In this document: piece by piece, positions 25,338 to 50,113 of the stretch
Numbering within the stretch: position 1 is the stretch's first letter
Layout of the letters: every line of letters starts with the position of its first letter
Assembly (NCBI RefSeq): GCF_015533855.1
Contig: NZ_AP024154.1
Coordinates: forward strand, 2,982,501-3,046,500
Direction: 5' to 3'
DNA from: Echinicola sp. 20G
Lineage (GTDB): Bacteria; Bacteroidota; Bacteroidia; Cytophagales; Cyclobacteriaceae
Length of the DNA: 64,000 nt
The notes under the pieces: model-generated
Seen by the model: the letters and a program-made list of their open reading frames with translations, nothing else
What the model was told of the DNA's origin: nothing
Database searches by the model: none
Position numbers and translations under genes: made by a program

Positions 25338-27545
25338 ATGAATATTACGGCTTTGAAGCCCTTTAAAATTACTTGGGCGGTATTGCTATGCACTTTTTTT
25401 TCAGCATTAGCCCATGCACAAGAGAATCTCTATATTCCCCTGGAAACACAGCACAATGCCTTGGTGCTATCGGTTTCCAATAGTCATGACCTTAATATCG
25501 CCTATTATGGGAAACGACTCAATTCAGATAAGGAATACTCATCCGTCTTGAGACAGTACAACCAAACGGGGGATTATTCCCAAGTACTGGATGCAGCCTA
25601 TACCTCAGCGGGTTCCAGAAACCTAATGGAACCCGCCATCTCGGTTATCCATGCAGATGGGAACACCTCCCTGTCATTGAAGTACATCTCTCACAAAGTG
25701 GAAGACCTTGATGAAAACATTTCCCAGGCAAGCATAAAATTAGAGGATACTGCATACGGGTTTAATGTATCCCTTTATTATAAGCTTTACAAAAAGGAGG
25801 ATGTTATAGAACAATGGAGTGAGCTGTCCCATAACGAAAAGGGACCAGTGGAATTGACCAAGTTTGCCTCGGGTAATTTATACTTCAGGGATGCCCAATA
25901 TTATTTGACACAATATCATGGAGACTGGGCACATGAAATGAATCCAGAGACAAGCCTGCTCACCCATGGAATAAAGACCATTGATTCAAAGCTTGGCACA
26001 AGGGCAAACCTATTTCAACCGTCGGTTTTTATGGTGGCCATGGACCAGCCTGCAACTGAGGATGAAGGAACTGTTCTATTTGGGGCAATGGAATGGAGTG
26101 GGAATTTTAAAATTGACCTTGAACTGGATTACAGGGACAATTTAAGGCTTATTGCTGGGATGAATAATTATGCATCAAGCTATAAGTTGGAGAAAGGTGA
26201 AATTTTTGAGACGCCAAAGTTTTTGCATCTGCTCTCTCATAATGGTAAAGGAGAAGCAAGCAGGAAATTGCATTCATGGGCAAAGGACTATAAGTTACTG
26301 GATGGCAATGGAGAACGGTTGACATTGTTAAACAATTGGGAAGCAACTTATTTTGATTTCGAGGAAAAGAAATTATTTGAGCTCCTAAAGGACACAAAGG
26401 AACTTGGTGTTGACCTTTTTCTATTGGATGATGGATGGTTTGGTAATAAATATCCACGAAACAATGATGATGCGGGTTTAGGTGACTGGCAGGCCAATAA
26501 AAGGAAACTTCCCAATGGGGTGTCTTCTCTAGTAAAGGAAGCGGGGGAGAATGGGGTCAAGTTCGGTATTTGGATAGAGCCTGAAATGGTCAACCCTGAA
26601 AGTGAACTGTACCATGAGCATCCAGAGTGGGTGATCAAGCAACCGAAAAGAAAAGAACATTATTTTAGAAACCAATTGGTCTTGGACCTGAGCAATCCCA
26701 AAGTGCAGGACTTTGTGTTCAACGTAGTAAATGACCTTTTTTTGGAGAATCCGGAATTGGCCTACATTAAATGGGATTGTAATGCGGTCATATACAATGC
26801 CTATTCCTCTCATTTGGATAAGCAGTCCCACCTGTACATTGACTATGTGAAGGGACTTTACAATGTACTTGAGAGAATCAGGAAAAAATACCCGAAAGTG
26901 CCAATGATGCTTTGTTCCGGAGGAGGGGGAAGGGTTGACTATGCTGCACTTGAATATTTTACGGAGTTTTGGCCAAGTGACAACACGGATCCATTGGAAC
27001 GAATTTTTATGCAATGGGAATACTCTTATTTCTATCCTGCGATTAGTGTTGCAAATCATGTGACCGAATGGGGTAAACAACCCCTAAAATTCCGGGTAGA
27101 TGTGGCCATGATGGGAAAACTTGGGTTTGATATTGTAGTGGGTGAATTGGAGCAAAAAGATCTTCAGTTTGTACAACATGCTGTGAAAACATATGATGAT
27201 ATAAAACAAATTGTTTGGCAAGGTGATCTCTACCGTCTCTCAGATCCAAAAAACACTGATTTTGCTTCGTTAATGTATGTCAATGAAGAAAAAGACCAAG
27301 CAGTCGTATTTAACTACTTGGTGAATAACCGCTACGGGCAAGGTAGTAAACGCCCTGTAAAACTGGGTGGTCTGGACCCGGAAAAAAGATATCGTATCCA
27401 GGAAATCAACCTTTACCCGGGAACCTCTTCCTATATCGATTCCAACCAGGTGTACTCTGGAGATTTTCTTATGAAAATTGGCTTTAACCCAAAGGTGGGC
27501 AAAGGTAAGGAAAGTGTTTTGTTGAAAGTAGAAGCGGTAAGGTAA
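25338..27545 (+). CDS. GH36 alpha-galactosidase with signal peptide
   Basis: GH36 enzymes are retaining alpha-galactosidases that act on raffinose-type and galactomannan side-chain galactose. The 735 residues show a signal peptide (about 1-28, ending ALAHAQ), an N-terminal beta-sandwich, and a (beta/alpha)8 barrel with LFLLDDGWFG, FGIWIEPEMVNPESELY, IKWDCNAVI (nucleophile D480), CSGGGGRVDYAALEYF and WPSDNTDP (acid/base D548). The residue numbers almost coincide with those I recall for Geobacillus AgaA (D478 and D548). Many GH36 members are cytosolic, so the leader is a point of note and places this one in the periplasm. It overlaps the GH97 gene by one base. Confidence 0.95.
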   Translation: MNITALKPFKITWAVLLCTFFSALAHAQENLYIPLETQHNALVLSVSNSHDLNIAYYGKRLNSDKEYSSVLRQYNQTGDYSQVLDAAYTSAGSRNLMEPAISVIHADGNTSLSLKYISHKVEDLDENISQASIKLEDTAYGFNVSLYYKLYKKEDVIEQWSELSHNEKGPVELTKFASGNLYFRDAQYYLTQYHGDWAHEMNPETSLLTHGIKTIDSKLGTRANLFQPSVFMVAMDQPATEDEGTVLFGAMEWSGNFKIDLELDYRDNLRLIAGMNNYASSYKLEKGEIFETPKFLHLLSHNGKGEASRKLHSWAKDYKLLDGNGERLTLLNNWEATYFDFEEKKLFELLKDTKELGVDLFLLDDGWFGNKYPRNNDDAGLGDWQANKRKLPNGVSSLVKEAGENGVKFGIWIEPEMVNPESELYHEHPEWVIKQPKRKEHYFRNQLVLDLSNPKVQDFVFNVVNDLFLENPELAYIKWDCNAVIYNAYSSHLDKQSHLYIDYVKGLYNVLERIRKKYPKVPMMLCSGGGGRVDYAALEYFTEFWPSDNTDPLERIFMQWEYSYFYPAISVANHVTEWGKQPLKFRVDVAMMGKLGFDIVVGELEQKDLQFVQHAVKTYDDIKQIVWQGDLYRLSDPKNTDFASLMYVNEEKDQAVVFNYLVNNRYGQGSKRPVKLGGLDPEKRYRIQEINLYPGTSSYIDSNQVYSGDFLMKIGFNPKVGKGKESVLLKVEAVR

Positions 27546-29536
27546 TGAAAAGAAAAGTGATGATGAAAAAAATAGATTTAACAGTAGCTTCTCGGATAGT
27601 ACTACTGGCTTTTATGGTCATTTTTGTTGGTTGCTCAAACTCAAGGGTAAATGAGTGGAAGGTAACTTCACCTGATGGCAGTCTCAAGGGAATTATTGCG
27701 CTGGACGAAAGCGGGGTTTTGACCTATCAAGTAAAAAAACAGGAGGGGGAACAGCAGCATATTGTAATGGAACCAAGTCAATTGGGGATTATTAGAAAAG
27801 ACCAAAGATTCGATACACTTTATTATGATGGTACCCAGGAAGTAAAAATCATCGATGAAAATTATAAACTCAGGTCCGGGAAAAGATTGAGCAATCAGAA
27901 CCATTATCATGAACTTACACTAAGTTTTAAAAACCACTCTGGAAACCCTATAGATATCATTTTCAGAGCTTATGATGATGGTTTTGCTTTTAAGTATTTT
28001 TTCCCTTCCGATGGAAGTGATGCATTATATACAGTGTCCGAAGAACTGACAAGTTTTGACCTTCCCACGGGAAAGGCATGGATGCAGCCTTATGATAGTG
28101 CAACAGCTTATGCTCCGGCATATGAAAGGAATTATGAAGGGGATATGACAATAGGGACCTCTGCCCCTGGAAAAGAAGGATGGTGCTTTCCTGCATTATT
28201 TCAAGTAAATGGACAGTGGGTGTTGCTTTCTGAGTCCAACCTTAAAGCTAACTTTCATGGATCCCACTTAAAGCCTTATGCTCCAAAAGGCAAATACCAA
28301 GTTACCGGCCCGGAAAGCGATGAGGCATTTGGTTATGGAGAGCCCCTTGCAACTTCAAAATTACCTTGGGATATGCCATGGAGGGTGATGGTAGTAGGGA
28401 GTGAACTTGGAACAATAGTGGAGTCCAACCTGATTAACCATCTAGCAGATCCCTCAAAAATTGAAAATACAGCATGGGTTGAACCAGGAAGAGCATCATG
28501 GGCCTGGTGGTCTGGATATCTCGATGGATCCAATGATACACCGGAAAAACTCAAGCACTTTATTGATTTTGCCCAGGATATGGGCTGGGAATATTCCCTT
28601 ATTGACGCTGGGTGGGACTATCGTCCGGGATTTGATCTTACCGAAATGGTTGAATATGCCAATAATAGAGGAGTTGACCTACTGATGTGGTATAATTCAG
28701 GTGGTCCGATTAATCGTGTCAATGCTGGACCAAGAGACATGATGTTCGATCCTGAAATCAGAAAGCAAGAAATGAAAAGGATTTCCGACATGGGAATTAA
28801 AGGTATAAAGGTAGACTTTTTTTCCAGTGACAAGCAGGATTTTATTCAGTTGTTTACTGCTATTCTAGAAGATGCAGCGAAGTACAAACTATTGGTCAAT
28901 TTTCATGGGTGTACGATTCCCCGGGGCTGGGCAAGAACCTATCCCAATATGATCTCTTATGAAAGTGTGAAAGGTTCAGAAGCATATATTTATCATGCAG
29001 ATTTTGAACGGAATTCACCCATGCACAATACAATTCTTCCTTTTACTCGAAATGTGATCGGATCCATGGACTACACACCAGTGGCTTTTTCAACCCAACA
29101 AGTGCCTCATCGTACCAGTTTTGGACATGAGCTGGCACTTTCAGTGGTTTTTGAGTCTGGCATTACCCACTTTGCTGACACACCGGAGATGTACCTAGCC
29201 CAACCCGAAGAAGTGATCGGGTTTCTAAGTGAGGTTCCCGCTGCCTGGGAGGATACAAAATTTGTCAGTGGATATCCTGCTAAAGAAGTGGTAATAGCCA
29301 GAAGGAAAGGTGAAGAATGGTTTGTCGGTGGAATAAATGGAGAGAATACCTACAAACAACTTCAAATTCCAATGGATTTTTTAGGCACCGGAAAGTATAA
29401 AGCAACCCTAATAGCAGATGGAAAAGGGAACAAGGAGTTTTCCATTGACCAGATGATGGTGTCCAGCCAAAGCTTAGTGGACATAAGCATGCTGGCCATC
29501 GGAGGTTTTGTAATGAAAATTACTCCCGAACCATAA
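27545..29536 (+). CDS. GH97 retaining alpha-galactosidase (GH97b type), lipoprotein
   Basis: GH97 divides into inverting alpha-glucosidases (SusB type, glutamate base) and retaining alpha-galactosidases (BtGH97b type, aspartate nucleophile). This one carries GIKVDFFSS with D424 at the nucleophile position and KGSEAY with E479 as acid/base; the spacing of 55 residues matches D415/E470 of BtGH97b as I recall it. The 663 residues begin with a lipoprotein leader (IFVGC, C30), then the beta-sandwich (EWKVTSPDGSLKGII) and the barrel (RASWAWWSGYLDG, YSLIDAGWDY, MWYNSGGP). ATG codons at 27545, 27560 and 27563 are possible starts; the first overlaps the GH36 stop. It probably clips alpha-galactose from aryl or oligosaccharide substrates in the periplasm. 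Confidence 0.94.
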   Translation: MKRKVMMKKIDLTVASRIVLLAFMVIFVGCSNSRVNEWKVTSPDGSLKGIIALDESGVLTYQVKKQEGEQQHIVMEPSQLGIIRKDQRFDTLYYDGTQEVKIIDENYKLRSGKRLSNQNHYHELTLSFKNHSGNPIDIIFRAYDDGFAFKYFFPSDGSDALYTVSEELTSFDLPTGKAWMQPYDSATAYAPAYERNYEGDMTIGTSAPGKEGWCFPALFQVNGQWVLLSESNLKANFHGSHLKPYAPKGKYQVTGPESDEAFGYGEPLATSKLPWDMPWRVMVVGSELGTIVESNLINHLADPSKIENTAWVEPGRASWAWWSGYLDGSNDTPEKLKHFIDFAQDMGWEYSLIDAGWDYRPGFDLTEMVEYANNRGVDLLMWYNSGGPINRVNAGPRDMMFDPEIRKQEMKRISDMGIKGIKVDFFSSDKQDFIQLFTAILEDAAKYKLLVNFHGCTIPRGWARTYPNMISYESVKGSEAYIYHADFERNSPMHNTILPFTRNVIGSMDYTPVAFSTQQVPHRTSFGHELALSVVFESGITHFADTPEMYLAQPEEVIGFLSEVPAAWEDTKFVSGYPAKEVVIARRKGEEWFVGGINGENTYKQLQIPMDFLGTGKYKATLIADGKGNKEFSIDQMMVSSQSLVDISMLAIGGFVMKITPEP

Positions 29537-29563: not shown

Positions 29564-32500
29564 ATGACTATTAACCTATATAAGCCGTTTTTGGATTTGA
29601 TAAAAAGGGTGTACCATAAATGCTATGCCCTTCTTATCACCTCTAATCAAAGAATGATTTGTATGATGGCCATGGCTACCTGCTTATGTTGGTATCCGCT
29701 CAGTGGCCATGCTCAAGAATATCAAGCAGAAATGGAAGGTGGGACCCTAACAAATGGTGCCTCAATTCAGTCATGCAGTTCCTGTTCGAATGGACAACAG
29801 GTTGGAAATCTGGGAGGGACACAAAATGGAAGTATCTTGCTTGAGTTGGAGGTAGCAGATGCCGGTGATTATGAACTGGAACTGTCCTACAGTTCAGCTG
29901 ACCCTAGGTCCATCTTTTTGGCTATTAATGAGGATGGACCGATTGAGATCAAATGCCCTCCTTCAGGGGGATGGTCAGTTACAGATGAAGTGACAGTTCT
30001 TGTAAAACTAGAAAAAGGAAGTAACCTATTTAAGTTTGACAATTCACAAAGCTGGGGGCCAAATTTGGATAAGGCAGTGGTTAGGATGGGAAAAACCGTA
30101 TCAATTTCAGGAATCGTGACCGAAAACGGGGAGCCAATCTCAGGGATCGACGTTGAAATAGAAGGCTACGTTTCCAAGAACGTTAAAACTGGCCCGGATG
30201 GGGCGTATAGCTTTTTAAAACTTCCCTCAAAGAGAAACTATATAATTAGCCCTAAATCAGAGGTTTATCAATTTGATCCCATCTACCGAAATTATCAACA
30301 TTTGGATACTGATTTGGAGGCACAGAATTTTGAAGCGGGTGAAATATGTACGGATTGCATAGTGGAATTTGGTTTTGGGCAGACCGGTAAAGTTTTCTAC
30401 AACACATCAACTGGTACGGCAAGTATTCAGCAAGGCGTAAATAACAGGTTGGAAAATATCCATGCGGAAGTGGTGGTTAATGGTGAACAAATTTCCTCTT
30501 GGGATTATAAGGAGAGAACCATCAAAAAAGAAGCAATAAATGATGCATTTGGTACAGGTTCAAAATGGACTGTTATTAATACCAGTGATGACTTTCCAAA
30601 AATGGAACAGGTGTTTTACGCGTATTCGGATAGAAAGTATATCCTTATGCAAGTAAATGTATCGGGAACCGGTATCAGAAGTAATTTTATGGCTCCACTG
30701 GTAGCCAATAAAGGGGAAATAGGAAATAACATAGAGAATCAGGCACTGGTTATGCCTTTTGACAATGATGCCTTTGTAAGGTATGCATCAAAACCTCTCG
30801 ATACAGGGGTACCCGTGGAAAGTTCAGAAGTGACAGCAGTGTATGAAAACAGCTCACGGAACGGTATGGTGATTGGCTCTGTCAATCAAGACAGGTGGAA
30901 GACTGGAATCCGTGCCAATGGAAGGCCTGGAGAATTGACAGAGCTTGTCGCCTATGGTGGCTATTCTGAAAGAAGTGTGACACGTGATCAAAAGGAACAT
31001 GGGTATCTTACTGGCAGTGTGGTCTCTTCCCCTAAAATCTTGGTCGGATTCTTTGAGGATTGGAGAGAAGGCCTTGATGCATATGGTGAGGCAAACCTAA
31101 TTGAGCAGCCCAGATATATATTTGATTGGAATGAGGCAACACCATTCGGTTGGAATAGTTGGGGAGCCATACAAACGGATTTGAATTTGGACAAGGCTAA
31201 AGGTGTAGTGGACTTTTTTGACCTTCAACTACCAGGGTTCAGAAGTGGTGGAACTGCTTATGTTGACCTGGATTCCTATTGGGACAATATGGTAAGTGGT
31301 GGTCTTGAGGGAGATTATAGCCAATTGATCGAATTTGCCAACTATTGTAAGGAAAAAGGCCTAAAGCCAGGGATTTATTGGGCTCCTTTTGTGGACTGGG
31401 GGAAAAGCAACCGTAAAGTGGAAGGCTCATCGTATCAATATAGCGATACATGGACAAAGGTGAATGGAGGATTTCATGATTTTGATGGGGCCAGGGCAAT
31501 GGATCCTACACATCCAGGAACCTTAAAGCGGATAGACTTGGTAATTGATAAGTTTATAAAATGTGGCTTTGAAATGGTCAAGATAGACTTTATTGGACAT
31601 GCATCCGTAGAGGCAGATAGCTTTTATGAATCATCCGTAACTACTGGAATGCAGGCTTTTCACTATGGTATGAAACACCTAATCGATGCTATGCAAGGAA
31701 AAATGTTGGTGTATGTAGCGATAAGTCCCAATCTCGCAACTGGACCATATGCACATTCCCGAAGAATTGCCTGTGATGCTTACGCTGACATTAATGCCTC
31801 CGAATATACACTTAACAGTACCACGTTTGGTTGGTGGCAGTCTAGTATATATGATTTTATCGACGCCGATCATATGGTTTTTGGCCAGGCTTCTTTTGGG
31901 GAGAATAAAGCAAGGATGGCTTCAGGCATTGCCAATGGTACCTTAATTACAGGAGATGACTATAGCCGTACAGGGCCTTGGACATCCGCTGCGAAACAAC
32001 TGCTACAAAACCAGGACCTACTTGATATTGTACAACATAAGAAGGCATTTAGACCTGTGGAAGGCAATATTGGAGATGGAGCCAGTGAAGCTTTTATCAA
32101 AAAGATTGAAGGTGTTCCTTATGTTATACTTATTAATTATCAAAATGAAAGAAAGTCCTTTGACCTTTCCTTTGAAAGATTGGGGATAAGCCCAGGTAAT
32201 TATGCTTTAAAAGAGCTCTTCAAAGGTGATTATAGGATTTCTGAAGGAAATGTGCTGACCGCTACATTGGAAGCAAAGGATGCTGCCATCTTTCGATTTG
32301 AGGAAGGGCTGATTAATTCTTCCCCACAGGAAAGTGAAGAAAAAGAATTGGTGTTTCCCAACCCCGCACATGATAGGATAACGGTGACAAGCGGGAAGAG
32401 GATAGATCATGTTCAAATGATTGCACTTAATGGCCAAACTGTAAGCAAACAGGAAAATATTATGAAAAGCAAGGTTGAAATCGACCTTCAGTTAATTCAA

Positions 32501-32572
32501 AGCGGTGTTTACCTTCTCTATGTTACCAGGGAAAATGGTGGACGTAATGTTTATAAGGTCATAAAAAGATAG
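29564..32572 (+). CDS. Multidomain GH27-like alpha-galactosidase with carbohydrate-binding module and T9SS signal
   Basis: The 1002-residue protein has a long leader ending SGHAQ (about residue 51; an internal ATG at 29654 is an alternative start). A CBM35/CBM6-like beta-sandwich follows (about 52-180, QAEMEGGTLTNG, GDYELELSYSS), then a carboxypeptidase-regulatory-like domain (about 182-240, SISGIVTENGEPISGIDVEI), a beta-rich linker domain, and a barrel opening with PFGWNSWGA as in GH27/GH36. D675 in KIDFIG is the likely nucleophile and R734 to D738 the likely acid/base motif. Residues 928-1002 form a type A T9SS sorting domain (VFPNPAHDRITV, GVYLLYVTREN, VIKR end). It is therefore probably secreted or surface-attached and makes the first cut outside the cell. 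The exact CAZy family is uncertain. Confidence 0.87.
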   Translation: MTINLYKPFLDLIKRVYHKCYALLITSNQRMICMMAMATCLCWYPLSGHAQEYQAEMEGGTLTNGASIQSCSSCSNGQQVGNLGGTQNGSILLELEVADAGDYELELSYSSADPRSIFLAINEDGPIEIKCPPSGGWSVTDEVTVLVKLEKGSNLFKFDNSQSWGPNLDKAVVRMGKTVSISGIVTENGEPISGIDVEIEGYVSKNVKTGPDGAYSFLKLPSKRNYIISPKSEVYQFDPIYRNYQHLDTDLEAQNFEAGEICTDCIVEFGFGQTGKVFYNTSTGTASIQQGVNNRLENIHAEVVVNGEQISSWDYKERTIKKEAINDAFGTGSKWTVINTSDDFPKMEQVFYAYSDRKYILMQVNVSGTGIRSNFMAPLVANKGEIGNNIENQALVMPFDNDAFVRYASKPLDTGVPVESSEVTAVYENSSRNGMVIGSVNQDRWKTGIRANGRPGELTELVAYGGYSERSVTRDQKEHGYLTGSVVSSPKILVGFFEDWREGLDAYGEANLIEQPRYIFDWNEATPFGWNSWGAIQTDLNLDKAKGVVDFFDLQLPGFRSGGTAYVDLDSYWDNMVSGGLEGDYSQLIEFANYCKEKGLKPGIYWAPFVDWGKSNRKVEGSSYQYSDTWTKVNGGFHDFDGARAMDPTHPGTLKRIDLVIDKFIKCGFEMVKIDFIGHASVEADSFYESSVTTGMQAFHYGMKHLIDAMQGKMLVYVAISPNLATGPYAHSRRIACDAYADINASEYTLNSTTFGWWQSSIYDFIDADHMVFGQASFGENKARMASGIANGTLITGDDYSRTGPWTSAAKQLLQNQDLLDIVQHKKAFRPVEGNIGDGASEAFIKKIEGVPYVILINYQNERKSFDLSFERLGISPGNYALKELFKGDYRISEGNVLTATLEAKDAAIFRFEEGLINSSPQESEEKELVFPNPAHDRITVTSGKRIDHVQMIALNGQTVSKQENIMKSKVEIDLQLIQSGVYLLYVTRENGGRNVYKVIKR

Positions 32573-32602: not shown

Positions 32603-33628
32603 ATGGTCTTTAAGCAATATTGGGGAGATTATAAAAGTAGGGAAGTCTACCTGTTCAGAATCACAAATGCCAGTGGTGCCTATGTGGAATTAATAAACTT
32701 AGGGGCCACAATAGTTTCAATATATGTGCCCAATAAATATGGTAGGCTGATGAATACAGTTCTGGGCTTTCCAACATTAGATGGTTATATCAAGGATAAT
32801 TGTTACCTGGGACGGACAATTGGCAGGTTTGCGAACAGGATTAGCCAAGGGCGCTTTTTTTTGGATGATTGGATGTGGAATCTGGAAACCAATGATGGGA
32901 AGCACAACAACCACAGTGGTAGTGATGGGTTTCATGATAAAGTAATGGATTTTAGGGAGGAAGAAGATGGGGTTGTGTTTTTCTATACTAGCCCACACTT
33001 GGAGGGTGGGTTTCCCGGTACGGTGGATTTTCAAGTGAAATACTCATGGTCACATAAAAATGAACTTCTCATAGAATACGGTGCTGTAAGTGATCGCAGC
33101 ACCTACGTAAACTTCACCAACCATTCCTACTTTAACCTGGAGTTCGGAAGCCCTAAAATTTTAGCCCACAGACTTGTTGTGGAAAGTGAATTGATGATCG
33201 AAAATACTTCAGAGCATATCCCTTCAAGAATAATATCCATTAATGGTAGAAATGAATTGAATGGGAAAAAAGTAGGCCACAGTGTGCTCTATAAGGAAAT
33301 GCGGCATATAGGACTCAACAATTATTATATCCTGAAGAGAAAAGGCAATGATAAGCCGTCTTTGATTCGACTCGAAGCTCCAAGATCTGGTATTGAATTA
33401 AACATTTGTACTTCTTATCCGGGAGTACAAGTGTATACTGGCGATTACCTCAAAACAGCTGTAAGAGGAAATGAAGGGATGAAATACGGTCCCTTTGAAG
33501 GTTTGTGCTTGGAATGCCATAATTATCCGGATTTTCCTAACCAACCTAATTTTCCCAAAGCAGTACTGTTTCCTAACATGCAAATGAAGGAGTTTATCAA
33601 ATATAAATTTGGCGTATTGGAAGAATAA
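32603..33628 (+). CDS. galM: Aldose 1-epimerase (mutarotase)
   Basis: This enzyme interconverts the alpha and beta anomers of galactose and feeds galactokinase. The 341 residues lack a signal peptide, so it acts in the cytosol. Active-site landmarks are NNHSG (H104), NHSYFNLEFG (H174) and LECHNYPDFPNQPNFP with E304 as the general base; E304 matches the lactococcal GalM number. The gene starts 30 bases after the T9SS alpha-galactosidase and 105 bases before the sugar porter. Its presence among three alpha-galactosidases supports galactose as the released sugar. Confidence 0.93.
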   Translation: MVFKQYWGDYKSREVYLFRITNASGAYVELINLGATIVSIYVPNKYGRLMNTVLGFPTLDGYIKDNCYLGRTIGRFANRISQGRFFLDDWMWNLETNDGKHNNHSGSDGFHDKVMDFREEEDGVVFFYTSPHLEGGFPGTVDFQVKYSWSHKNELLIEYGAVSDRSTYVNFTNHSYFNLEFGSPKILAHRLVVESELMIENTSEHIPSRIISINGRNELNGKKVGHSVLYKEMRHIGLNNYYILKRKGNDKPSLIRLEAPRSGIELNICTSYPGVQVYTGDYLKTAVRGNEGMKYGPFEGLCLECHNYPDFPNQPNFPKAVLFPNMQMKEFIKYKFGVLEE

Positions 33629-33733: not shown

Positions 33734-35179
33734 ATGAACGTAGATAACCAGTTTAATAAGTCTTTTGTAATGCGCATTTCACTTGTCTCAGCATTGGGAG
33801 GACTTTTGTTTGGATATGATTGGGTAGTAATAGGAGGGGCTAAACCTTTTTATGAACTCTATTTTGGTATAGTAGGTAATTCTGTACTTACCGGTTGGGC
33901 AATGAGCTGTGCTTTGGTAGGTTGCTTGGTCGGTGCAGGAGTATCCGGAATGGCAAGTGATAGGTGGGGCAGGAAGCACCTTTTAATTTTGGCGGCATTC
34001 CTCTTTATAGTCTCCGCAGTAGGTACGGGAGCAGCACAGCATTTTACCAGCTTTATAATATACAGAATTATTGGTGGAATAAGTATTGGCCTGGCATCCA
34101 ATCTATCTCCTATGTATATCGCCGAAGTAACTCCAGCCAAATTCCGCGGGGCTTTTGTATCTATAAACCAGCTTACAATAGTGATAGGAATTTTGGCTGC
34201 CCAAATAGCAAATTACCTCATTGCCGAACCAATTATTGAAGGGGATACCAGTAAAACAATGCTGAATTCTTGGAATGGACAATGGGGGTGGCGATGGATG
34301 TTTTGGATGGAAAACATCCCGGCTTTTATATTTTTCTTGTTAATGTTTACCGTTCCAAGGAGTCCGAGGTGGCTGGCAGCTCAAGGATACCTAAAAGAAG
34401 CAGGAGAGGTGCTTTCGAAAATTGGGGGAAGAAGTTTTGCAAAGAATTCCCTTGAAAAGATCATCGGATCAGATGATGGCCATGTAGCTGAAAAGATTTC
34501 TTTGAGACAGCTTTTCAGCAATAGAACAGGAAAGATAGTAATGATTGGAATAGTATTGGCCGCTTTCCAGCAATGGTGCGGGATCAACGTCATTTTTAAT
34601 TACGCCGAAGAAATATTCACCGCTGCAGGGTACGGTGTCGGCGACCTGCTATTCAATATTATTATCACCGGTACAATCAACCTGATTTTTACGGTCATAG
34701 CCATGTTTACCGTTGATAAGTGGGGAAGGAAACCGTTAATGCTTTTTGGGGCTATTTCACTTTCCATAACCTATTGCGTGATGGGAACAATGTACTTTCT
34801 TGGTATACAAGGGTTCCCTTTATTGGTAATGGTGGTAACCGGTATTGCATTTTATGCCATGTCATTAGCTCCGATCACATGGGTGGTGCTTTCAGAAGTT
34901 TTTCCCAACAGGATCAGGGGAAGGGCCATGTCTGCCGCTACTATTTCCCTTTGGTCAGCAAGTTTTCTGCTTACCTATAGTTTTCCTTTACTTAACGAGC
35001 AGCTGGGAGCCTCAGGTACTTTTTGGCTCTATGGGTTAATCTGTCTTGCTGGATGGTTTTTTATTCGTGAAAAATTAGTGGAAACTATGGGGAAATCACT
35101 AGAGGAAATCGAGTCTGAATTATTGGAAGAAAGAAAGACAGAAGATTCGGAGTTTGTCGAGTTGGTAAATAAAGGATAG
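33734..35179 (+). CDS. MFS sugar porter, probable sugar:proton symporter
   Basis: The protein has 481 residues and about 12 membrane segments. Sugar-porter family signatures are GGLLFGYDWVVIGGA in helix 1, SDRWGRKHLLI between helices 2 and 3, IYRIIGGISIGLASNLSPMYIAEVTPAKFRGA, PRSPRWLAAQG in the central loop, QQWCGINVIFNYAEEIF in helix 7, DKWGRKPLMLFG, and VVLSEVFPNRIRGRAMS. It is related to XylE/GalP-type transporters and should carry a monosaccharide, by context galactose, across the inner membrane. The DUF5107-TPR gene follows after only 6 bases, which suggests tight co-expression. Confidence 0.95.
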   Translation: MNVDNQFNKSFVMRISLVSALGGLLFGYDWVVIGGAKPFYELYFGIVGNSVLTGWAMSCALVGCLVGAGVSGMASDRWGRKHLLILAAFLFIVSAVGTGAAQHFTSFIIYRIIGGISIGLASNLSPMYIAEVTPAKFRGAFVSINQLTIVIGILAAQIANYLIAEPIIEGDTSKTMLNSWNGQWGWRWMFWMENIPAFIFFLLMFTVPRSPRWLAAQGYLKEAGEVLSKIGGRSFAKNSLEKIIGSDDGHVAEKISLRQLFSNRTGKIVMIGIVLAAFQQWCGINVIFNYAEEIFTAAGYGVGDLLFNIIITGTINLIFTVIAMFTVDKWGRKPLMLFGAISLSITYCVMGTMYFLGIQGFPLLVMVVTGIAFYAMSLAPITWVVLSEVFPNRIRGRAMSAATISLWSASFLLTYSFPLLNEQLGASGTFWLYGLICLAGWFFIREKLVETMGKSLEEIESELLEERKTEDSEFVELVNKG

Positions 35180-35185
35180 TAATAA

Positions 35186-38100
35186 ATGATGATCAATATG
35201 GAAAAAGTTGTGGTATGGGTGGAAGACAAAGTAATCCCCACCTATGAAATCGGAGAAGCAGAAAAAAATCCCATTTTTTTGGAAAAAAGAGTTTACCAGG
35301 GAAGCAGTGGGGTGGTGTACCCTTATCCGGTAGTTGAAAAAATTTCAGATGCTAAAACGGATAAAGTTTGGAAAGCCGTATTTATGGAAAACCAATACCT
35401 CAAGATCATGATACTTCCTGAACTTGGAGGAAGGGTACAAATGGCGTATGACAAGATAAAAGAAAGGCATTTTGTTTATTACAATCATGTGATCAAGCCT
35501 GCACTGGTGGGGCTGACAGGACCATGGATATCCGGAGGCATTGAGTTTAACTGGCCACAGCACCACAGGCCAAGTACTTACCTTCCGGTTGAATATCAAA
35601 TAGAGGAAAAGGAAGATGGCAGTAAAACTGTTTGGTGCAGCGAAGTGGAAAGGATGTTCAGGACTAAAGGAATGGCAGGTTTTACCCTACATCCAGATAA
35701 GGCCTATTTGGAAATTAAGGGCCAACTATACAATAGAACTCCAATACCCCAGACTTTTTTATGGTGGGCAAACCCTGCTGTGGCAGTAAACGATCATTAC
35801 CAATCAGTTTTTCCCCCTGACGTCAATGCGGTTTTTGACCATGGTAAAAGGGATGTATCCGCATTTCCCATAGCAAAGGGAACCTATTACAAAGTCGATT
35901 ATTCACGTGGCGTGGATATTTCTAAATATAAAAATATACCGGTACCAACGTCATACATGGCGATCGTCTCTGAATATGATTTTGTGGGAGGATTTGAAAA
36001 CGATAGCAAAGGGGGGCTGTTGCATGTGGCAGACCATCAGGTGTCTCCCGGAAAAAAACAATGGACTTGGGGCAATGGAGATTTTGGAAAAGCTTGGGAC
36101 AGAAACCTTACCGATGAAGATGGACCTTATATTGAGTTGATGTGCGGTGTATTTACTGATAACCAGCCTGATTTTAGCTGGTTGATGCCCAATGAAGAAA
36201 AGTCCTTTACCCAATACTTTATGCCTTATCAAGAATTGGGTGTGGTAAAAAATGCAACCAAGGATGCCCTGTTCAATGTTGAGTTCCAAAATGGAGAGAT
36301 TAGGTTAATGGTATATACAACAGCTCGTTATGATGGGGCTGTAATCAGGGTTTCACAACATGGAAATATTTTGTTTGAAGAAAGGGCAAATATTTCTCCA
36401 TGGTATGTGTTTGACAAATTGGTTCAAATTGATTTAAATCAGGAAGATGAGTTTCAAGTAGACGTGTTTGATGGCAGGAACAAGAACTTAGTGTCCTGGA
36501 GGACTTCCAAAAGTAAAAACACAGAAATTCCCCAGCCTGCTAAAGCAGCCAAGGATCCTGAAGAAATAGAAAGCAATGAGCAACTTTTCCTGACTGGACA
36601 ACATATTGAACAGTACCGACATGCCACTTTTGATGCCACGGCATATTACCTGGAAGCTTTAAAAAGAGACCCTAAGGATTATCGCTGTAACAACGCTATG
36701 GGAATGGTAATGTTAAAAAGAGGGAAATTTCTTGATGCGCTTTCATTTTTTAATCAATCGGTAGCCACCCAGTTGGAAAGAAACCCCAATCCATATGATG
36801 GGGAACCTCTTTATAATCTCGGCCTGGTCCATCGATATCTTGGGAACAGAAAAGAGGCTTTGGATGCTTTTTCTAAGGCTGTTTGGAATGCTTCTTATAA
36901 AGATTCAGGATATTTTCAATTGGCACAATTGCATCTTGAAAATGGTGATTTGGAAAAAGCCCAAGAGGCCGCTGAACAGTCGCTGGCAAGGAACTCCAGA
37001 AGCCCCAAAGCACAGCATCTCCAAACCATTATATTGAGGAAGTCAGGTAAGAGGGATGCTGCCCTTAAGTGTGCCGAACATGGCCTGGAAATGGATTGTT
37101 TTAACCATGGTCTTAGGTATGAAGTATCCCTACTTAAAAATAATGTTTCTGAATTAAATAAGATCAAGGATATAGTTGGCTTAAACGTCCACCCTTATTT
37201 GGAATATGCATTGGATTATGCGTGGGCCGGACAATTTGACGATGCTATTGGTCTAATTGAGCTGGGCATGGAAGCCATCGGATCAGATTATCCAATGGCA
37301 TATTATCTCAAGGGCTGGTTCCAAATTAAAAAAGGAGAGTCAGGAATTGAGGAGTTTGGTAAGGCTGCATTAGCCAGTACTGACTATTGCTTTCCAAATA
37401 GGTTGGAAGAACTATTGGCGCTTGAAGCTGCAGTAGCTCATGGCCCTGAAAATGCAATGACCTATTACTACCTAGGAAATTTCTGGTACCATAACCGCCA
37501 ATACCATAATGCAAAGGAGGCCTGGGAAAAATCAGTTTACCTGAATCCTGCCTTTTCAATAGCCAATAGAAATCTAGCCTTGGTCTGCTATAACAAATTT
37601 AATGAAAGAGATCATGCAATTGATCTAATGGAAAAAGCTCTTTCTAATGCACCAAATGATGCAAGGATATTGATGGAATTGGACCAACTTTATAAAAAGG
37701 AAAACTTAAGTATTGAAAAGCGGATTACCCTATTGGATCAATTTGATCACCTTGTGATCAGCCGAGATGATCTCTACCTGGAGAGATTGACCCTGGAAAA
37801 TATTTCTGGAAGATATGGAAAAGCCTTCGATCTTATTATGGGACGGGTTTTCCATCCTTGGGAAGGAGGAGAGGGGAAAGTGCCGGAACAATATAGGATC
37901 GCTTTGCTGGGACTGGCCAAACAAGAAATACTTGAAGGTAATTTTGAAAAAGGACTGGAATACCTTGCCTCGTCTTTAAAATATCCCAATAACCTTGGAG
38001 AAGGAAAGCTTTACGGAACCTTGGAACCAGAGCTTTACTTTTGGATGGGCTACACACTGGATAAAATGGGACAAAAGGATGATGCAAAAAAATACTGGAA

Positions 38101-38518
38101 TATGGCAAGAGAAGGCACTATTGTCCCTTCTGTCACTTGGTTTTATAATGACCAGAAGTCCGATAAACTGTTTTATCAAGGTCTTGCTTTTAAGATGTTG
38201 GAAAATGAGAAGGAGGCCGATAAAAGGTTTCGGCAGCTGTTGGAATATGGTAAGGAACACCAACAAAAGCAGGTTAAGGTGGATTACTTTGCAGTGTCCA
38301 TGCCTGATCTACTGATCTGGGATGGAGATCTTCAGGAAATGAACAATGTTCATTGCAAGTATTTAATGGGGTTGGGACACTTGGGACTTGGGTCAAAAAC
38401 CGAAGCAGAAAAACTGTTCAGGGAAATTTTGGAATCACAGGCCAATCATCAAGACGCGAAAAATCATCTCGACCTGGTAAAGAACTGGGAATTATGGATG
38501 GATTTGTCTGTTTCCTAA
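35186..38518 (+). CDS. DUF5107 domain protein fused to TPR repeats, predicted cytosolic, function unknown
   Basis: The 1110-residue protein has no signal peptide. Its N-terminal third (about 30-340) matches the DUF5107 pattern, a fold I recall as galactose-mutarotase-like. It is rich in conserved polar and aromatic residues that look like a sugar site: WISGGIEFNWPQHH (E120, H126, H127), WWANPAVAVNDHYQSVFP, HVADHQ (H280, D283, H284), WTWGNGDFGKAWD and GPYIELMCG (E317). From about 475 to the C-terminus it is built of TPR helices (YLEALKRDPKDYRCNNAMG, PLYNLGLVHRYLGNRKEALDAF, AMTYYYLGNFWYHNRQYHNA). It sits 6 bases after the sugar porter and 19 bases before an AraC regulator, so it probably handles imported sugar, as an enzyme or sensor. 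I cannot name a reaction. Confidence 0.85.
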   Translation: MMINMEKVVVWVEDKVIPTYEIGEAEKNPIFLEKRVYQGSSGVVYPYPVVEKISDAKTDKVWKAVFMENQYLKIMILPELGGRVQMAYDKIKERHFVYYNHVIKPALVGLTGPWISGGIEFNWPQHHRPSTYLPVEYQIEEKEDGSKTVWCSEVERMFRTKGMAGFTLHPDKAYLEIKGQLYNRTPIPQTFLWWANPAVAVNDHYQSVFPPDVNAVFDHGKRDVSAFPIAKGTYYKVDYSRGVDISKYKNIPVPTSYMAIVSEYDFVGGFENDSKGGLLHVADHQVSPGKKQWTWGNGDFGKAWDRNLTDEDGPYIELMCGVFTDNQPDFSWLMPNEEKSFTQYFMPYQELGVVKNATKDALFNVEFQNGEIRLMVYTTARYDGAVIRVSQHGNILFEERANISPWYVFDKLVQIDLNQEDEFQVDVFDGRNKNLVSWRTSKSKNTEIPQPAKAAKDPEEIESNEQLFLTGQHIEQYRHATFDATAYYLEALKRDPKDYRCNNAMGMVMLKRGKFLDALSFFNQSVATQLERNPNPYDGEPLYNLGLVHRYLGNRKEALDAFSKAVWNASYKDSGYFQLAQLHLENGDLEKAQEAAEQSLARNSRSPKAQHLQTIILRKSGKRDAALKCAEHGLEMDCFNHGLRYEVSLLKNNVSELNKIKDIVGLNVHPYLEYALDYAWAGQFDDAIGLIELGMEAIGSDYPMAYYLKGWFQIKKGESGIEEFGKAALASTDYCFPNRLEELLALEAAVAHGPENAMTYYYLGNFWYHNRQYHNAKEAWEKSVYLNPAFSIANRNLALVCYNKFNERDHAIDLMEKALSNAPNDARILMELDQLYKKENLSIEKRITLLDQFDHLVISRDDLYLERLTLENISGRYGKAFDLIMGRVFHPWEGGEGKVPEQYRIALLGLAKQEILEGNFEKGLEYLASSLKYPNNLGEGKLYGTLEPELYFWMGYTLDKMGQKDDAKKYWNMAREGTIVPSVTWFYNDQKSDKLFYQGLAFKMLENEKEADKRFRQLLEYGKEHQQKQVKVDYFAVSMPDLLIWDGDLQEMNNVHCKYLMGLGHLGLGSKTEAEKLFREILESQANHQDAKNHLDLVKNWELWMDLSVS

Positions 38519-38537: not shown

Positions 38538-39419
38538 ATGCTAGAGAAAAACGAAGGTTTTCAAGGGCAAAAGGTAATCACACTTCCTCCCTCTATTTTA
38601 GAAGCCTGCCAAAAGCATTGCCTTTTGGCAGATTTCTATATTTCAGATATAGGTTACTACCCCAGAGCTCAACATCATTACAGGGAGCGGAATTGTGGAA
38701 CAGAACAATATATTCTGATCTATTGTGTGGAAGGAAGAGGCTGGATGGAAACGGAAGGCGGAAAACAAATGGAGGTTCACCCAAATGAATATGTTATTCT
38801 TCCCTCTAAAATACCTCATCGTTACGGTGCCTCAAAGGATTCACCATGGACCATTTTTTGGGTCCATTTTAATGGGGACAAAGCCGCTGAAATAAGCTCC
38901 CTGCTTTATGGAGAAAATGGAGCGTTGGTCAAACATGCCTCCTTTTCCGATGAAAGAATACATTGGTTCAATAAGGTATATACCTTATTGGAGTCTGGAT
39001 ATAGAACGGAAAACCTTTTGATGGCCAATATCTACCTGAAATCCTTTTTGGTTTCTTTGGCATATGGTGAAAGGGTAAACGGAAAGTGGCTCTCTCAGGA
39101 AAAAAAGGAAATCAATGATTCAATTGAGTTTATGAAAGAAAATCTCGAAAACCCTTTAGCCCTGGAGGAAATAGCTTCCCATGTTAATTTGTCAAAGTCA
39201 CATTTTGCTTTTCTTTTTAAAAAGAACACTGGGTATACTCCCATTGTTTATTTTAACCACCTAAAAATACAGCGTGCATGCCAATACCTTCGGTTTACCG
39301 ATCATAGGATCAGTCAGATAGCCCAAAACGTAGGGATAGATGATGCCTATTATTTTTCAAGACTATTCAGTAAGTCAATGGGTATCTCTCCTAAAGATTA
39401 TAGAAATAGAAAACAGTAG
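38538..39419 (+). CDS. AraC-family transcriptional regulator with cupin sugar-sensing domain
   Basis: The 293 residues split into an N-terminal AraC-binding cupin (about 25-160, REYILIYCVEG-like QYILIYCVEGRGWMETEGG, EYVILPSKIPHRYGA, WTIFWVHFNG) and a C-terminal double helix-turn-helix (about 190-290, SIEFMKENLENPLALEEIA, LSKSHFAFLFKKNTGYTP, RISQIAQNVGIDDAYYFSRLFSKSMGISPKDYR). It is probably a cytosolic sugar-responsive activator of the alpha-galactoside genes. It lies inside the same gene run, 19 bases after DUF5107-TPR and 2 bases before the esterase fusion, so it would be co-transcribed with its likely targets. Confidence 0.94.
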   Translation: MLEKNEGFQGQKVITLPPSILEACQKHCLLADFYISDIGYYPRAQHHYRERNCGTEQYILIYCVEGRGWMETEGGKQMEVHPNEYVILPSKIPHRYGASKDSPWTIFWVHFNGDKAAEISSLLYGENGALVKHASFSDERIHWFNKVYTLLESGYRTENLLMANIYLKSFLVSLAYGERVNGKWLSQEKKEINDSIEFMKENLENPLALEEIASHVNLSKSHFAFLFKKNTGYTPIVYFNHLKIQRACQYLRFTDHRISQIAQNVGIDDAYYFSRLFSKSMGISPKDYRNRKQ

Positions 39420-39421
39420 CA

Positions 39422-41428
39422 ATGGAAAATGTCCTACAACCAAAGAAAATGATGAAATTTTCGTTCATCTTGTTGCTCCTTTTTGTAATGGCCCAAATAG
39501 CTTTAGGTCAAACATTAGTGCCAAACCATTCAGGAAAATGGATGGGATTTGATAAAACTGACAGCTTGTTTGATGGAAAAGAAATGAGATTGGTTTATTC
39601 CCGAACTCCTCTTCCTGGAAAACCGTGGGTCTGGAGGGCACGCTTTCCGGAATGGCATACCAAGATGGACAGTATTTTACTTGAAAAAGGCTTCAATATT
39701 GCTTATATCAACACTGATGGAATGTATGGGAGCGACAGGGCAATCGAGGTTTGGGATAATTTTTATTGCTGGGTGACATCATCATTAGGCTGGCAGAACA
39801 AAGTAGTTTTGGAAGGCGTCAGCAGAGGAGGACTGTTTGTACTCAACTGGTCGATCAGAAACCCTGAAAAGGTTGCAAGTATATACTTGGAAGCGCCGGT
39901 ATGTGATTTTAAGAGTTGGCCGGCAGGATGGGGAGACGGCTTGGGAAGTGATCAGGATTGGAAGAAATTAATGGCCGAATATGGGTTTGAAAATGAAGAA
40001 CAGTCGAGGATATACCAAGGAAACCCAATTGACCAAATCCAAAAACTGGCCAAACATAAAGTGCCCATTATGATAATGATTGGTTTGGACGACAAGCATG
40101 TCCCCCCTAAAGAAAATGCATTGCCACTTGCTGAGAAGTATATTGGGTCAGGTGGGCCGGTAACAATAATACCCTGTACCTCTGGTACACCAACAATGGA
40201 AGGACATCATTTTCCCATCGAAACACCATCTGTTGCCGCTGAATTTTTGTCCTTTCATCAGCGTAAGAATGGGTCGGCTCCTCTTTTTTCTGATGCCTAT
40301 CACCATATGAGAAATGGACTCCAAAACAGTAGGCTTGTTTTTGAGCGTACCCAAAAGGGTAGGGTCGCCTTTTTGGGCGGTTCCATCACTTATAATCCGG
40401 GTTGGCGTGACAGTGTCAAGAATTATTTGGTGAAGCGATTTCCCAGAACGACATTTGAGTTTGTGGATGCGGGAATTCCATCTATGGGAACAACCCCCGG
40501 GGCTTTTAGGCTGGAAAGAGATGTGCTATCCAAGGGTAAGATTGACCTGTTGTTTGAAGAAGCAGCAGTTAATGACCATACCAATGGCAGGTCACCTATA
40601 GAGCAGGTAAGAGGGATGGAAGGGATCGTTCGGCACACCATAAGGGATAATCCTGCAGTAGATATTGTCATGATGCACTTTGTGGATCCCGAGAAAATGA
40701 AGACCTACCGTAATGGAAAGGTACCTGAAGTGATCGAAAACCATGAAAGGGTAGCCGAACATTATGGAATACCCACTATTAATTTGGCCAAAGAAGTAAC
40801 CGACAGGATTGACCATGGTGAATTCACATGGGAAGGTGACTTCCAGAATCTTCACCCTTCTCCATTTGGACAGCAAGTGTATGCCAACTCGATAATTCAC
40901 TTTTTGGATAGGGCTTTTGGTGGAAGGGTTGATCCAGATGACAAAGCCATAGCCCGTGAACTTCCACAGCCACTGGACAACAATTCTTATGATAATGGAA
41001 AATTGGCAACGGCGATATCCTCAGTGACTAAAACAAAAGGATGGCTGGAAGTACAGGATTGGGAACCTTCTGACGGTGTCGGTACACGGGAAAATTATGT
41101 GAATGTTCCCATGTTGATTTCAAAGCTTCCGAAGAAAAAGCTGAACTTTGTATTCCATGGTAGCGCAGTGGGTATAGCAGTAGCCGCAGGGCCGGATGCA
41201 GCCACGATTGCATACAGGATCGATAAAGGAGATTGGCATTACCAAGATTTATTCACGCCTTGGAGCCATTTTTTACATTTGCCATGGTATTATACTTTGG
41301 GAGTTGGTTTGGATGAGGGAAGGCATACCTTGCAAATTAAGTTGGCTGGGACAAAAAATTCCAATAGCAAAGGGAATGCTGTACGCATAAGGTATTTTTA
41401 TTGGAATGCCACAGGTGACGATAATTGA
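39422..41428 (+). CDS. Two-domain secreted esterase: alpha/beta hydrolase fused to SGNH/GDSL hydrolase
   Basis: The 668-residue protein starts 2 bases after the AraC stop; ATG 39449 or 39452 would give a more typical signal peptide (MKFSFILLLLFVMAQIALG). Domain 1 (about 30-285) is an alpha/beta hydrolase with nucleophile S134 in GVSRGG, acid D223 or D224 in GLDDKHVPP and H262/H263 in EGHHFP. Domain 2 (about 290-500) is an SGNH hydrolase with S321 in FLGGSITYN and H478 in NLHPSPFG; the acid usually three residues before the histidine is Q here, with D473 nearby. A beta-rich C-terminal part follows. The pairing suggests removal of two ester types, for example acetyl and another acyl group, from a glycan in the periplasm. 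The substrates are unknown. Confidence 0.85.
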   Translation: MENVLQPKKMMKFSFILLLLFVMAQIALGQTLVPNHSGKWMGFDKTDSLFDGKEMRLVYSRTPLPGKPWVWRARFPEWHTKMDSILLEKGFNIAYINTDGMYGSDRAIEVWDNFYCWVTSSLGWQNKVVLEGVSRGGLFVLNWSIRNPEKVASIYLEAPVCDFKSWPAGWGDGLGSDQDWKKLMAEYGFENEEQSRIYQGNPIDQIQKLAKHKVPIMIMIGLDDKHVPPKENALPLAEKYIGSGGPVTIIPCTSGTPTMEGHHFPIETPSVAAEFLSFHQRKNGSAPLFSDAYHHMRNGLQNSRLVFERTQKGRVAFLGGSITYNPGWRDSVKNYLVKRFPRTTFEFVDAGIPSMGTTPGAFRLERDVLSKGKIDLLFEEAAVNDHTNGRSPIEQVRGMEGIVRHTIRDNPAVDIVMMHFVDPEKMKTYRNGKVPEVIENHERVAEHYGIPTINLAKEVTDRIDHGEFTWEGDFQNLHPSPFGQQVYANSIIHFLDRAFGGRVDPDDKAIARELPQPLDNNSYDNGKLATAISSVTKTKGWLEVQDWEPSDGVGTRENYVNVPMLISKLPKKKLNFVFHGSAVGIAVAAGPDAATIAYRIDKGDWHYQDLFTPWSHFLHLPWYYTLGVGLDEGRHTLQIKLAGTKNSNSKGNAVRIRYFYWNATGDDN

Positions 41429-48890: not shown

Positions 48891-50113
48891 AAAGAAATAG
48901 ATTAATCGCTTACACAATTGGCTGGTTGATTTTTACAGCAATGGCATATATGTTTTTAGGGAAGTCTGGAAATTGTCTGCCTGTAAAAGCTATGAAGAGC
49001 AGTCAATTTCCTGAATATAGGGATGTGGTAAGTATCATTAGGGAATATACTTTGGAAGAAGCCAGTTGGGCCATGAAACAACTTCCAATTACCGTTACCA
49101 GTAGCCACTCGCCAAGGAGTGCTGGAGGACTTCATGATTTTTACTCCGAAGGAGACTATTGGTGGCCAAATCCTGAAGACCCAGAAGGTCCTTATATACA
49201 AAGGGATGGCATGAGCAATCCGGATAATTTTGTAGCTCACCGAGAGGCAATGATCCGTTTCAGTAGAATAGTGGGGACATTGGCAGCAGCCTATCGTATC
49301 ACTAATGATACCACTTATGTTTCCAAAGCTTTTGATCATTTGGAAGCGTGGTTTTTGGAGGAAGATACCCGGATGAACCCCTCACTAGAATATGCCCAAG
49401 CCATTAAGGGAAGGGTAACTGGACGCGGCATCGGGATCATAGATACCATTCATTTGATGGAAGTGGCTCAGGGACTTAGCATTATTGGAAATGCCCCAAA
49501 TGCCGATCCAATGAAGGTTGAGAAAATCAAACAATGGTTTGATCAATACTTGGTTTGGCTCACGACCCACCAATATGGAAAGGATGAAAGTATACGGAAA
49601 AACAACCATGGCACCTGCTATTTTATGCAGGTAGCTTCATTTGCAAAACTAACCCAAAACAAAGAGCTGTTGGATACCTGTCGAAAACAATTTAAGGAAG
49701 TCCTACTCCCAAACCAGATGGCCAAGGATGGTAGTTTCCCGCTGGAACTAGAGCGAACAAAACCTTATGGGTATTCTATTTTTAATCTGGATGCTATGGC
49801 AACACTTGCCCAGGTGCTTTCCGACGATGAAAATAAGTTGTGGCAGTTTAGAACAAAAAATGGGCAAGGGATCCGGGATGGTATTCACTACCTGTTTCCC
49901 TACGTAAAAGATAAGCAGGTTTGGCCTTATTCACCAGATGTAATGTATTGGAACGATTGGCCCGTGGCGCAACCTTTTTTGGTGTTTGGTGCAATGGCCT
50001 ATGGAGAGAAGGAATGGTTTGATATCTGGGCAAAACTGGACCATAATCCAAAAGAAGGTGAAGTGCTCAGGAATTTGCCCATCAGAAATCCTATTATTTG
50101 GTTGGAAAAGTAA
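48887..50113 (+). CDS. Alginate-lyase superfamily protein (PF05426 type), secreted
   Basis: The 408-residue protein has a hydrophobic leader (about 8-25, YTIGWLIFTAMAYMFLG) that may be a signal peptide or an anchor. The alpha/alpha-toroid domain shows the family features DYWWPNPEDPEGPYIQRDG, AMIRFSRIVGTLAAAYRIT, KNNHGTCYFMQ (N240 and H241, the usual neutraliser and catalytic residues) and PYVKDKQVWPYSPDVMYW. Members cleave uronic-acid polymers by beta-elimination (alginate, or glucuronan in PL38). No other alginate enzyme occurs nearby, so a glucuronate-containing substrate shared with the GH2 partner is as likely as alginate. The canonical NNHGTWYD is NNHGTCYF here. Confidence 0.8.
   Translation: MKRNRLIAYTIGWLIFTAMAYMFLGKSGNCLPVKAMKSSQFPEYRDVVSIIREYTLEEASWAMKQLPITVTSSHSPRSAGGLHDFYSEGDYWWPNPEDPEGPYIQRDGMSNPDNFVAHREAMIRFSRIVGTLAAAYRITNDTTYVSKAFDHLEAWFLEEDTRMNPSLEYAQAIKGRVTGRGIGIIDTIHLMEVAQGLSIIGNAPNADPMKVEKIKQWFDQYLVWLTTHQYGKDESIRKNNHGTCYFMQVASFAKLTQNKELLDTCRKQFKEVLLPNQMAKDGSFPLELERTKPYGYSIFNLDAMATLAQVLSDDENKLWQFRTKNGQGIRDGIHYLFPYVKDKQVWPYSPDVMYWNDWPVAQPFLVFGAMAYGEKEWFDIWAKLDHNPKEGEVLRNLPIRNPIIWLEK

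Follow-up and report, generated by a model that had tools for sequence, protein, structure and literature searches.

Proteins that join a DUF5107 domain to tetratricopeptide repeats (TPRs) belong to a family of at least 7996 members (E 0.001 or better) that spans several phyla and is near-universal in Escherichia coli, where DNA of the gene that RefSeq names yphG was matched in 5372/5426 genomes (99% of complete ones). Despite this breadth, a literature search found no function: among the full-text matches listed, with most subscription journals outside the coverage, no paper studies DUF5107 or YphG function by title, and no functional paper was found for BDI_1685 of Parabacteroides distasonis (PDB 5cd6). 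In the accessible portions of the sources, yphG is only a gene in a list from E. coli ethanol arrays (PMC1599756) or a Klebsiella marker for the polymerase chain reaction (PMC10569728), the YphF of a further paper is a different protein of that name (PMC13068155), and papers on carrageenan (PMC5698469) and Maribacter arabinogalactan (PMC11036162) hold nothing on DUF5107-TPR function. Here we analyze a DUF5107-TPR protein encoded in a 64,000-nt stretch of Echinicola sp. 20G (NZ_AP024154.1, positions 2,982,501 to 3,046,500, forward strand), hereafter the window. An original prediction had called it a candidate sugar enzyme or sensor for which no reaction was known, and our literature search agrees on the last point. 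The modelled fold, the conserved residues, the neighboring genes and the co-occurrence with galK lead us to propose tentatively, at a probability of roughly 0.4, that the protein is a cytosolic enzyme acting on galactose; both the ligand and the reaction are what we infer from these four lines of observation.

The gene lies 6 bases after a sugar porter gene and 19 bases before an AraC-family regulator gene, as originally described. The predicted frame of 1110 residues is uninterrupted; because the database copy (P0002) has 1106 amino acids, four fewer than the window's open reading frame (ORF), the true start is probably the fifth codon (35198). The parts of the gene are as follows.

35186–38518, + strand: DUF5107-TPR protein, intact ORF of 1110 codons without internal stop
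35186–36235, + strand: N-terminal galactose-mutarotase-fold domain, residues 1–350
36236–36550, + strand: second beta domain and linker, residues 351–455
36551–38515, + strand: helical TPR solenoid, residues about 456–1110, from Pfam and the model
35543–35566, + strand: E120 to H127, EFNWPQHH
36023–36025, + strand: H280
36134–36136, + strand: E317
37850–37879, + strand: solenoid motif FHPWEGGEGK, residues 889–898
37982–38008, + strand: solenoid motif YPNNLGEGK (YPxNLGxGK), residues 933–941

The Pfam model DUF5107 (PF17128) matches residues 43–343 with 200.3 bits against a cut-off of 24.4, which makes the protein a member of the family, and several TPR models C-terminal to it exceed their Pfam cut-offs, which makes it a tandem-TPR protein as well; in the model, the helical solenoid covers residues 464–1106. 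It is the single DUF5107 match in its genome, and inspection by eye revealed no apparent signal peptide.

In the predicted structure, residues 7–351 adopt the galactose-mutarotase fold, as judged by comparison with structures of the aldose 1-epimerase GalM from Bacillus subtilis (3mwx, 4bze) and Lactococcus lactis (1l7k and mutants). The mutarotase-like N-terminal domain proposed originally is thus supported by both prediction and structure comparison. Profile searches at E 0.001 gave no match of the protein to PF01263 or TIGR02636, nor to a catalytic glycosidase family. Searching PDB sequences with the DUF5107 profile (hmmsearch) returned 5cd6, then three aldose epimerases at E 0.14 and katanin at 0.16. 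Like GalM, the domain has a Glu on its penultimate strand, at a distance from the domain end of 33 residues in the DUF5107-TPR protein and 35 in L. lactis; strand order and this distance suggest that E317 may be the counterpart of L. lactis E304.

Conservation was measured across 124 aligned rows (85 of the cytosolic and 39 of the secreted type), chosen from 361 proteins and 80 context loci. A Proteiniphilum acetatigenes homologue (L101, 10001–13279) was left out, as its first frame shows one stop codon within the matched region (a pseudogene, a frame shift or the wrong frame). E120, H127, H280 and E317 are invariant (124/124), as are N122, N196, K290, K291, W293, W295, W304, R478, R827, P891, G897, P934 and G940. 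These four acids and histidines are the part of an originally proposed seven-residue site that holds in both types; the other three do not extend beyond the cytosolic branch, since H126 (85/85 cytosolic-type rows) is Asp and H284 (80/85) is Tyr in 39/39 secreted-type rows, and D283 is Asp in 51/85 cytosolic-type rows. Across the 84 context loci described below, E120, H126 and H127 are kept in 83/83 (the L090 row being truncated at that point), H280, H284 and E317 in 84/84, and D283 in 38/84. On this comparison, E120, H127, H280 and E317 stand as the putative site common to cytosolic and secreted TPR types.

Mean Jensen-Shannon conservation is 0.459 in the solenoid versus 0.642 in the N-domain, with the second beta domain and linker the least conserved part (0.375). 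Two solenoid loops nevertheless survive across branches with about 25% identity to each other: in residues 889–898, P891 and G897 are invariant, E893 is kept in 123/124 rows and E896 in 121/124, and in residues 933–941, P934 and G940 are invariant. Residues 1–450 folded alone reach a mean pLDDT (predicted local distance difference test) of 64.7, with values under 50 in residues 1–4, 30–44, 107–117, 122–131, 212–262, 283–316, 318–331 and 442–450. Most of these stretches are conserved loops, with E120 and E317 just outside them, and ten-residue blocks of the same inner stretches score 61–94 in the full model. The drop agrees with N-domain loops that rest on the solenoid, but is no proof of it, as it also agrees with the shallower, less diverse alignment used for the N-domain (33 close homologues versus 124 rows). 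The TPR array of the original prediction is present, but rather than scaffolding partners, as was suggested, it may belong to the active site.

Gene neighborhoods connect the protein to sugar uptake and galactosides. The context set of 84 loci comprises 80 of at least 584 confirmed loci, the Cetobacterium, Klebsiella and E. coli loci (L002–L004) and the window; some loci are cut by contig ends, ORFs are longest-ORF calls, and family labels come from BLAST clusters, 10 representatives of which were checked with Pfam. The commonest neighbors are the porter, a single BLAST cluster present in 80/84 loci and directly adjoining on the same strand in 58, and AraC, present in 58/84 and on the opposite strand in 52. 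In a second sample, spread evenly over the phylum and partly overlapping the first, 14/16 full-length loci (at least 50% identity, window excluded) hold the porter. Among the 84 loci, 22 contain glycosidases of alpha type only, 34 of beta type only (GH2/GH35, clusters that we take to be beta-galactosidase-type from family knowledge), 3 both and 25 neither. The originally proposed association with an alpha-galactoside path is supported, but the locus type is wider, 34/84 loci having GH2/GH35 only. On the tree, the alpha/beta context changes at least 7 times (starred branches) and the site residues are the same in both contexts, which suggests that what the protein encounters is galactose, the product shared by both, and not one specific linkage.

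Genome content points the same way. In an order-level sample, galK is found in 8/8 carriers (a match of at least 50% identity; genomes with 25–31% relatives counted as others) versus 95/186 others (p 0.0075), and in a phylum-level sample, at E 1e-100 or better, in 17/18 carriers (one of which, G500, has only a 34% relative) versus 126/327 others (p 2e-6); both samples include the window's own genome, and the statistics ignore kinship and genome size, which counts against the galactose reading. Direct linkage also occurs. At L117 (848–11907, genome G139), a GH2 gene lies on one strand and AraC, porter, DUF5107-TPR, galK and galT on the other, the kinase and transferase exceeding their NCBIfam cut-offs; L050 has galK, porter, GH35, three further ORFs, DUF5107-TPR and GH2 on a single strand. 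The window's genome carries a galT-galK-GalM-LacI group elsewhere (L124; GalT and epimerase by Pfam, galK over cut-off). Replacement of galactokinase by the DUF5107-TPR protein was considered and rejected, as galK is present in the 8/8 and 17/18 carriers and in the window's genome.

We envisage that galactose would be imported by the adjoining porter and acted on in its pyranose form, either ahead of the Leloir pathway or alongside it. The mutarotase-fold domain would hold the pocket for binding and catalysis. E317, which appears to occupy the place of GalM E304 in the fold, would serve as general base, and the acid and the ligand residues would come from H127, H280 and E120; H127 or H280 might stand in place of GalM's catalytic His. 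The conserved loops on the TPR solenoid, FHPWEGGEGK and YPxNLGxGK, would complete the pocket. The likeliest chemistry would be acid-base catalysis at the anomeric carbon, that is, ring opening or epimerization, possibly continuing to isomerization.

Several further observations weigh against this proposal. The strand expected to carry GalM's catalytic His (L. lactis H170), QTFLWWANPAVA (residues 189–200), is devoid of His, and the chemistry of GalM can therefore not be carried over as it stands. Aligning GalM with DUF5107 profiles by hhalign gave nothing, and E317 was placed by strand order and distance to the domain end rather than by residue-level superposition. E120, H127 and H280 are replaced in a short secreted DUF5107 protein (L134; 24% identity over the compared stretch, with the Pfam model matched only over a short piece). 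The 25 loci of neither type have no such glycosidase in reach, and the window and 24 other of the 84 loci encode an aldose 1-epimerase, which would be redundant if the protein were a mutarotase only. One genome (G207) has the DUF5107-TPR gene without galK at E 1e-60, and in the E. coli operon the transporter is of another kind and a dehydrogenase is present, so that a different sugar may be involved there.

Possible, though we think it unlikely, is a galactose-sensing adaptor, whose mutarotase-fold domain would bind galactose unchanged while the TPR solenoid signals to a partner, for example the porter, a kinase or the AraC activator. Protein binding is a common role of TPR arrays, the gene is flanked in the window by the porter on one side and the AraC regulator on the other, both are its commonest neighbors, and the strand of GalM's catalytic His has none. 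However, 58/84 loci already have AraC (the window's with a cupin domain of its own), the two Enterobacteria loci have a ROK regulator instead, and the solenoid motifs are retained at only about 25% identity. Varying regulators and transporters around a constant protein, together with secreted relatives that keep the same residues out of reach of a cytosolic regulator, favor catalysis over signaling. Of the two roles first proposed, sequence and context tentatively place enzyme first and sensor second.

The distribution of GalM offers a clue to the anomer. A GalM-type gene is present in 14/22 alpha-only versus 0/34 beta-only loci (Fisher 5.5e-8; the 3 both-type and 25 neither-type loci left out), or in 12/18 versus 0/34 when GH97 and GH36 alone are counted. 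By order, assigned by hand, the figures are 5/5 versus 0/6 in Sphingobacteriales and 4/4 versus 0/9 in Flavobacteriales. The pattern is weakened by Bacteroidales, with GalM in 0/7 alpha-only and 0/13 beta-only loci, and by a beta-only locus with an epimerase (L158) in a second, partly overlapping sample; it is also weaker than it looks, as 4 to 5 tree-independent pairs agree and 0 disagree (median p 0.0625). Its direction appears to be the reverse of what a beta-to-alpha step before galactokinase would need, given the anomer preference that we presume for galactokinase, so that beta-galactose may be the form required by the consumer at these loci. We treat this as a lead. A new enzyme class, YphG included, in which the TPR solenoid would supply part of a mutarotase-fold active site specific for beta-D-galactopyranose, appears doubtful at present; under it, retaining beta-galactosidases would deliver the beta form directly and alpha-galactosidase loci would recruit GalM to make it.

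Slightly more doubtful is a new glycoside hydrolase or phosphorylase that would split a galactoside in the cytosol. Two glutamates, E120 and E317, are invariant, the Klebsiella and E. coli groups have an aldose epimerase without an annotated glycosidase, and among secreted full-length relatives a SusC-like neighbor occurs in 5/9 loci and one protein (P0319, 1798 amino acids) is fused to a GH20 domain. Yet XylE-like porters are known as monosaccharide carriers, the site residues stay unchanged through the switches between alpha- and beta-galactosidase contexts, and no glycosidase profile matches. Least probable is a plain second galactose mutarotase standing in for GalM, which fits the fold, the position of E317, the lack of a GalM gene in beta-only loci, where it could do the beta-to-alpha step, and the L117 galK-galT group without a GalM match in that stretch, but not the missing Aldose_epim match, the strand of GalM's acid without His, the epimerase gene alongside in 25/84 loci or the further galT-galK-GalM group in the window's genome.

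The neighbors of the gene in the window are the following.

25338–27545, + strand: GH36 melibiase-type alpha-galactosidase
27545–29536, + strand: GH97 enzyme, matching the NCBIfam retaining alpha-galactosidase model below its cut-off
29564–32572: unclassified protein of 1002 amino acids with a type IX secretion system (T9SS) tail; CBM35 matches weakly, and Pfam shows no glycosidase domain
32603–33628, + strand: aldose 1-epimerase (GalM-like), no signal peptide apparent by eye
33734–35179, + strand: sugar porter, nearest NCBIfam model XylE, below its cut-off
38538–39419, + strand: AraC-family regulator with cupin domain, by profile match

The protein at 29564–32572 is perhaps of an unclassified alpha-galactosidase-like family. 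It has relatives in 10/84 loci, a representative of which (L096) has no Pfam match at 1e-8; we assumed the label "GH27-like" for the cluster from motifs, and neither the window member nor the cluster representative has a glycosidase match. Directly after the AraC gene, 39422–41428 encodes a 668-residue protein that combines alpha/beta-hydrolase and GDSL lipase parts and clusters with none of the ORFs from the other 83 loci. Farther on in the same locus, an Alginate-lyase-domain protein (48887–50113) adjoins a GH2 enzyme and a hybrid-sensor-type gene.

Full-length relatives, at ~40–68% identity and far above chance, occur in Bacteroidota, Bacillota, Fusobacteriota and Enterobacteria. Identity to the window protein is about 50–68% in Bacteroidota and 48–53% in rows from the search through which Bacillota entered; it is 46% for Cetobacterium, 42% for Klebsiella and 40.7% over 97% for E. 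coli YphG. Viral contigs gave no match. In the Klebsiella group, a divergent ROK regulator is followed by DUF5107-TPR, a porter 53% identical to the window's and an aldose epimerase, with a gene annotated as a phenylpropionate transporter ~80 bases further. Other relatives are more distant. A DUF5107-TPR relative of 33% identity lies within a 2467-residue open frame (L157/L175, G508:C116). Two short DUF5107 proteins, at 9273–10988 of L134 (571 amino acids, with a T9SS tail and no TPR match) and 9129–10820 of L135 (563 amino acids), have neighbors that by similarity seem to resemble a non-phosphorylating pentose pathway (dehydrogenase, SMP-30, FAH-type, aldehyde dehydrogenase, xylosidase-like). 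Distant contexts in Sinorhizobium and Streptomyces records lack usable annotation and are not interpretable.

Thus, a conserved fusion of mutarotase-like and helical parts accompanies genes for sugar uptake and galactose in many bacteria, which makes its function testable with galactose and reduces the candidate substrates to a few compounds, with four residues and two solenoid motifs as targets for mutation. Should the solenoid indeed form the pocket, TPR repeats would here take an unusual part in small-molecule catalysis.

Compared with GalM, the DUF5107-TPR protein shares the fold and the Glu of the penultimate strand, but adds the TPR solenoid, lacks profile-level sequence similarity and has no His in the catalytic-His strand. 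The BDI_1685 group differs in its SusCD/DUF4091 context and in a representative, P0362, of 600 amino acids that looks secreted by eye, has no EGGEGK motif and ends in PF22256, which is absent from the window protein. Secreted-type DUF5107-TPR proteins (e.g. P0242 of Dyadobacter) have the same architecture, the four invariant residues and the EGxxEG and PxNLGxG motifs, but carry a signal peptide (by eye), are 23–27% identical and have other gene neighbors. ABC (ATP-binding cassette) transporters replace the porter in the E. coli and Cetobacterium loci, and the long Enterobacteria and Cetobacterium branches meet in the midpoint-rooted tree, which bears on YphG orthology. In E. coli, an ABC transporter, a zinc-binding dehydrogenase and a ROK regulator take the place of the window's major facilitator superfamily porter and AraC; YphG itself is collinear with the window protein over its full length, keeps the same invariant motifs and is likewise grouped with an aldose 1-epimerase and a sugar transporter.

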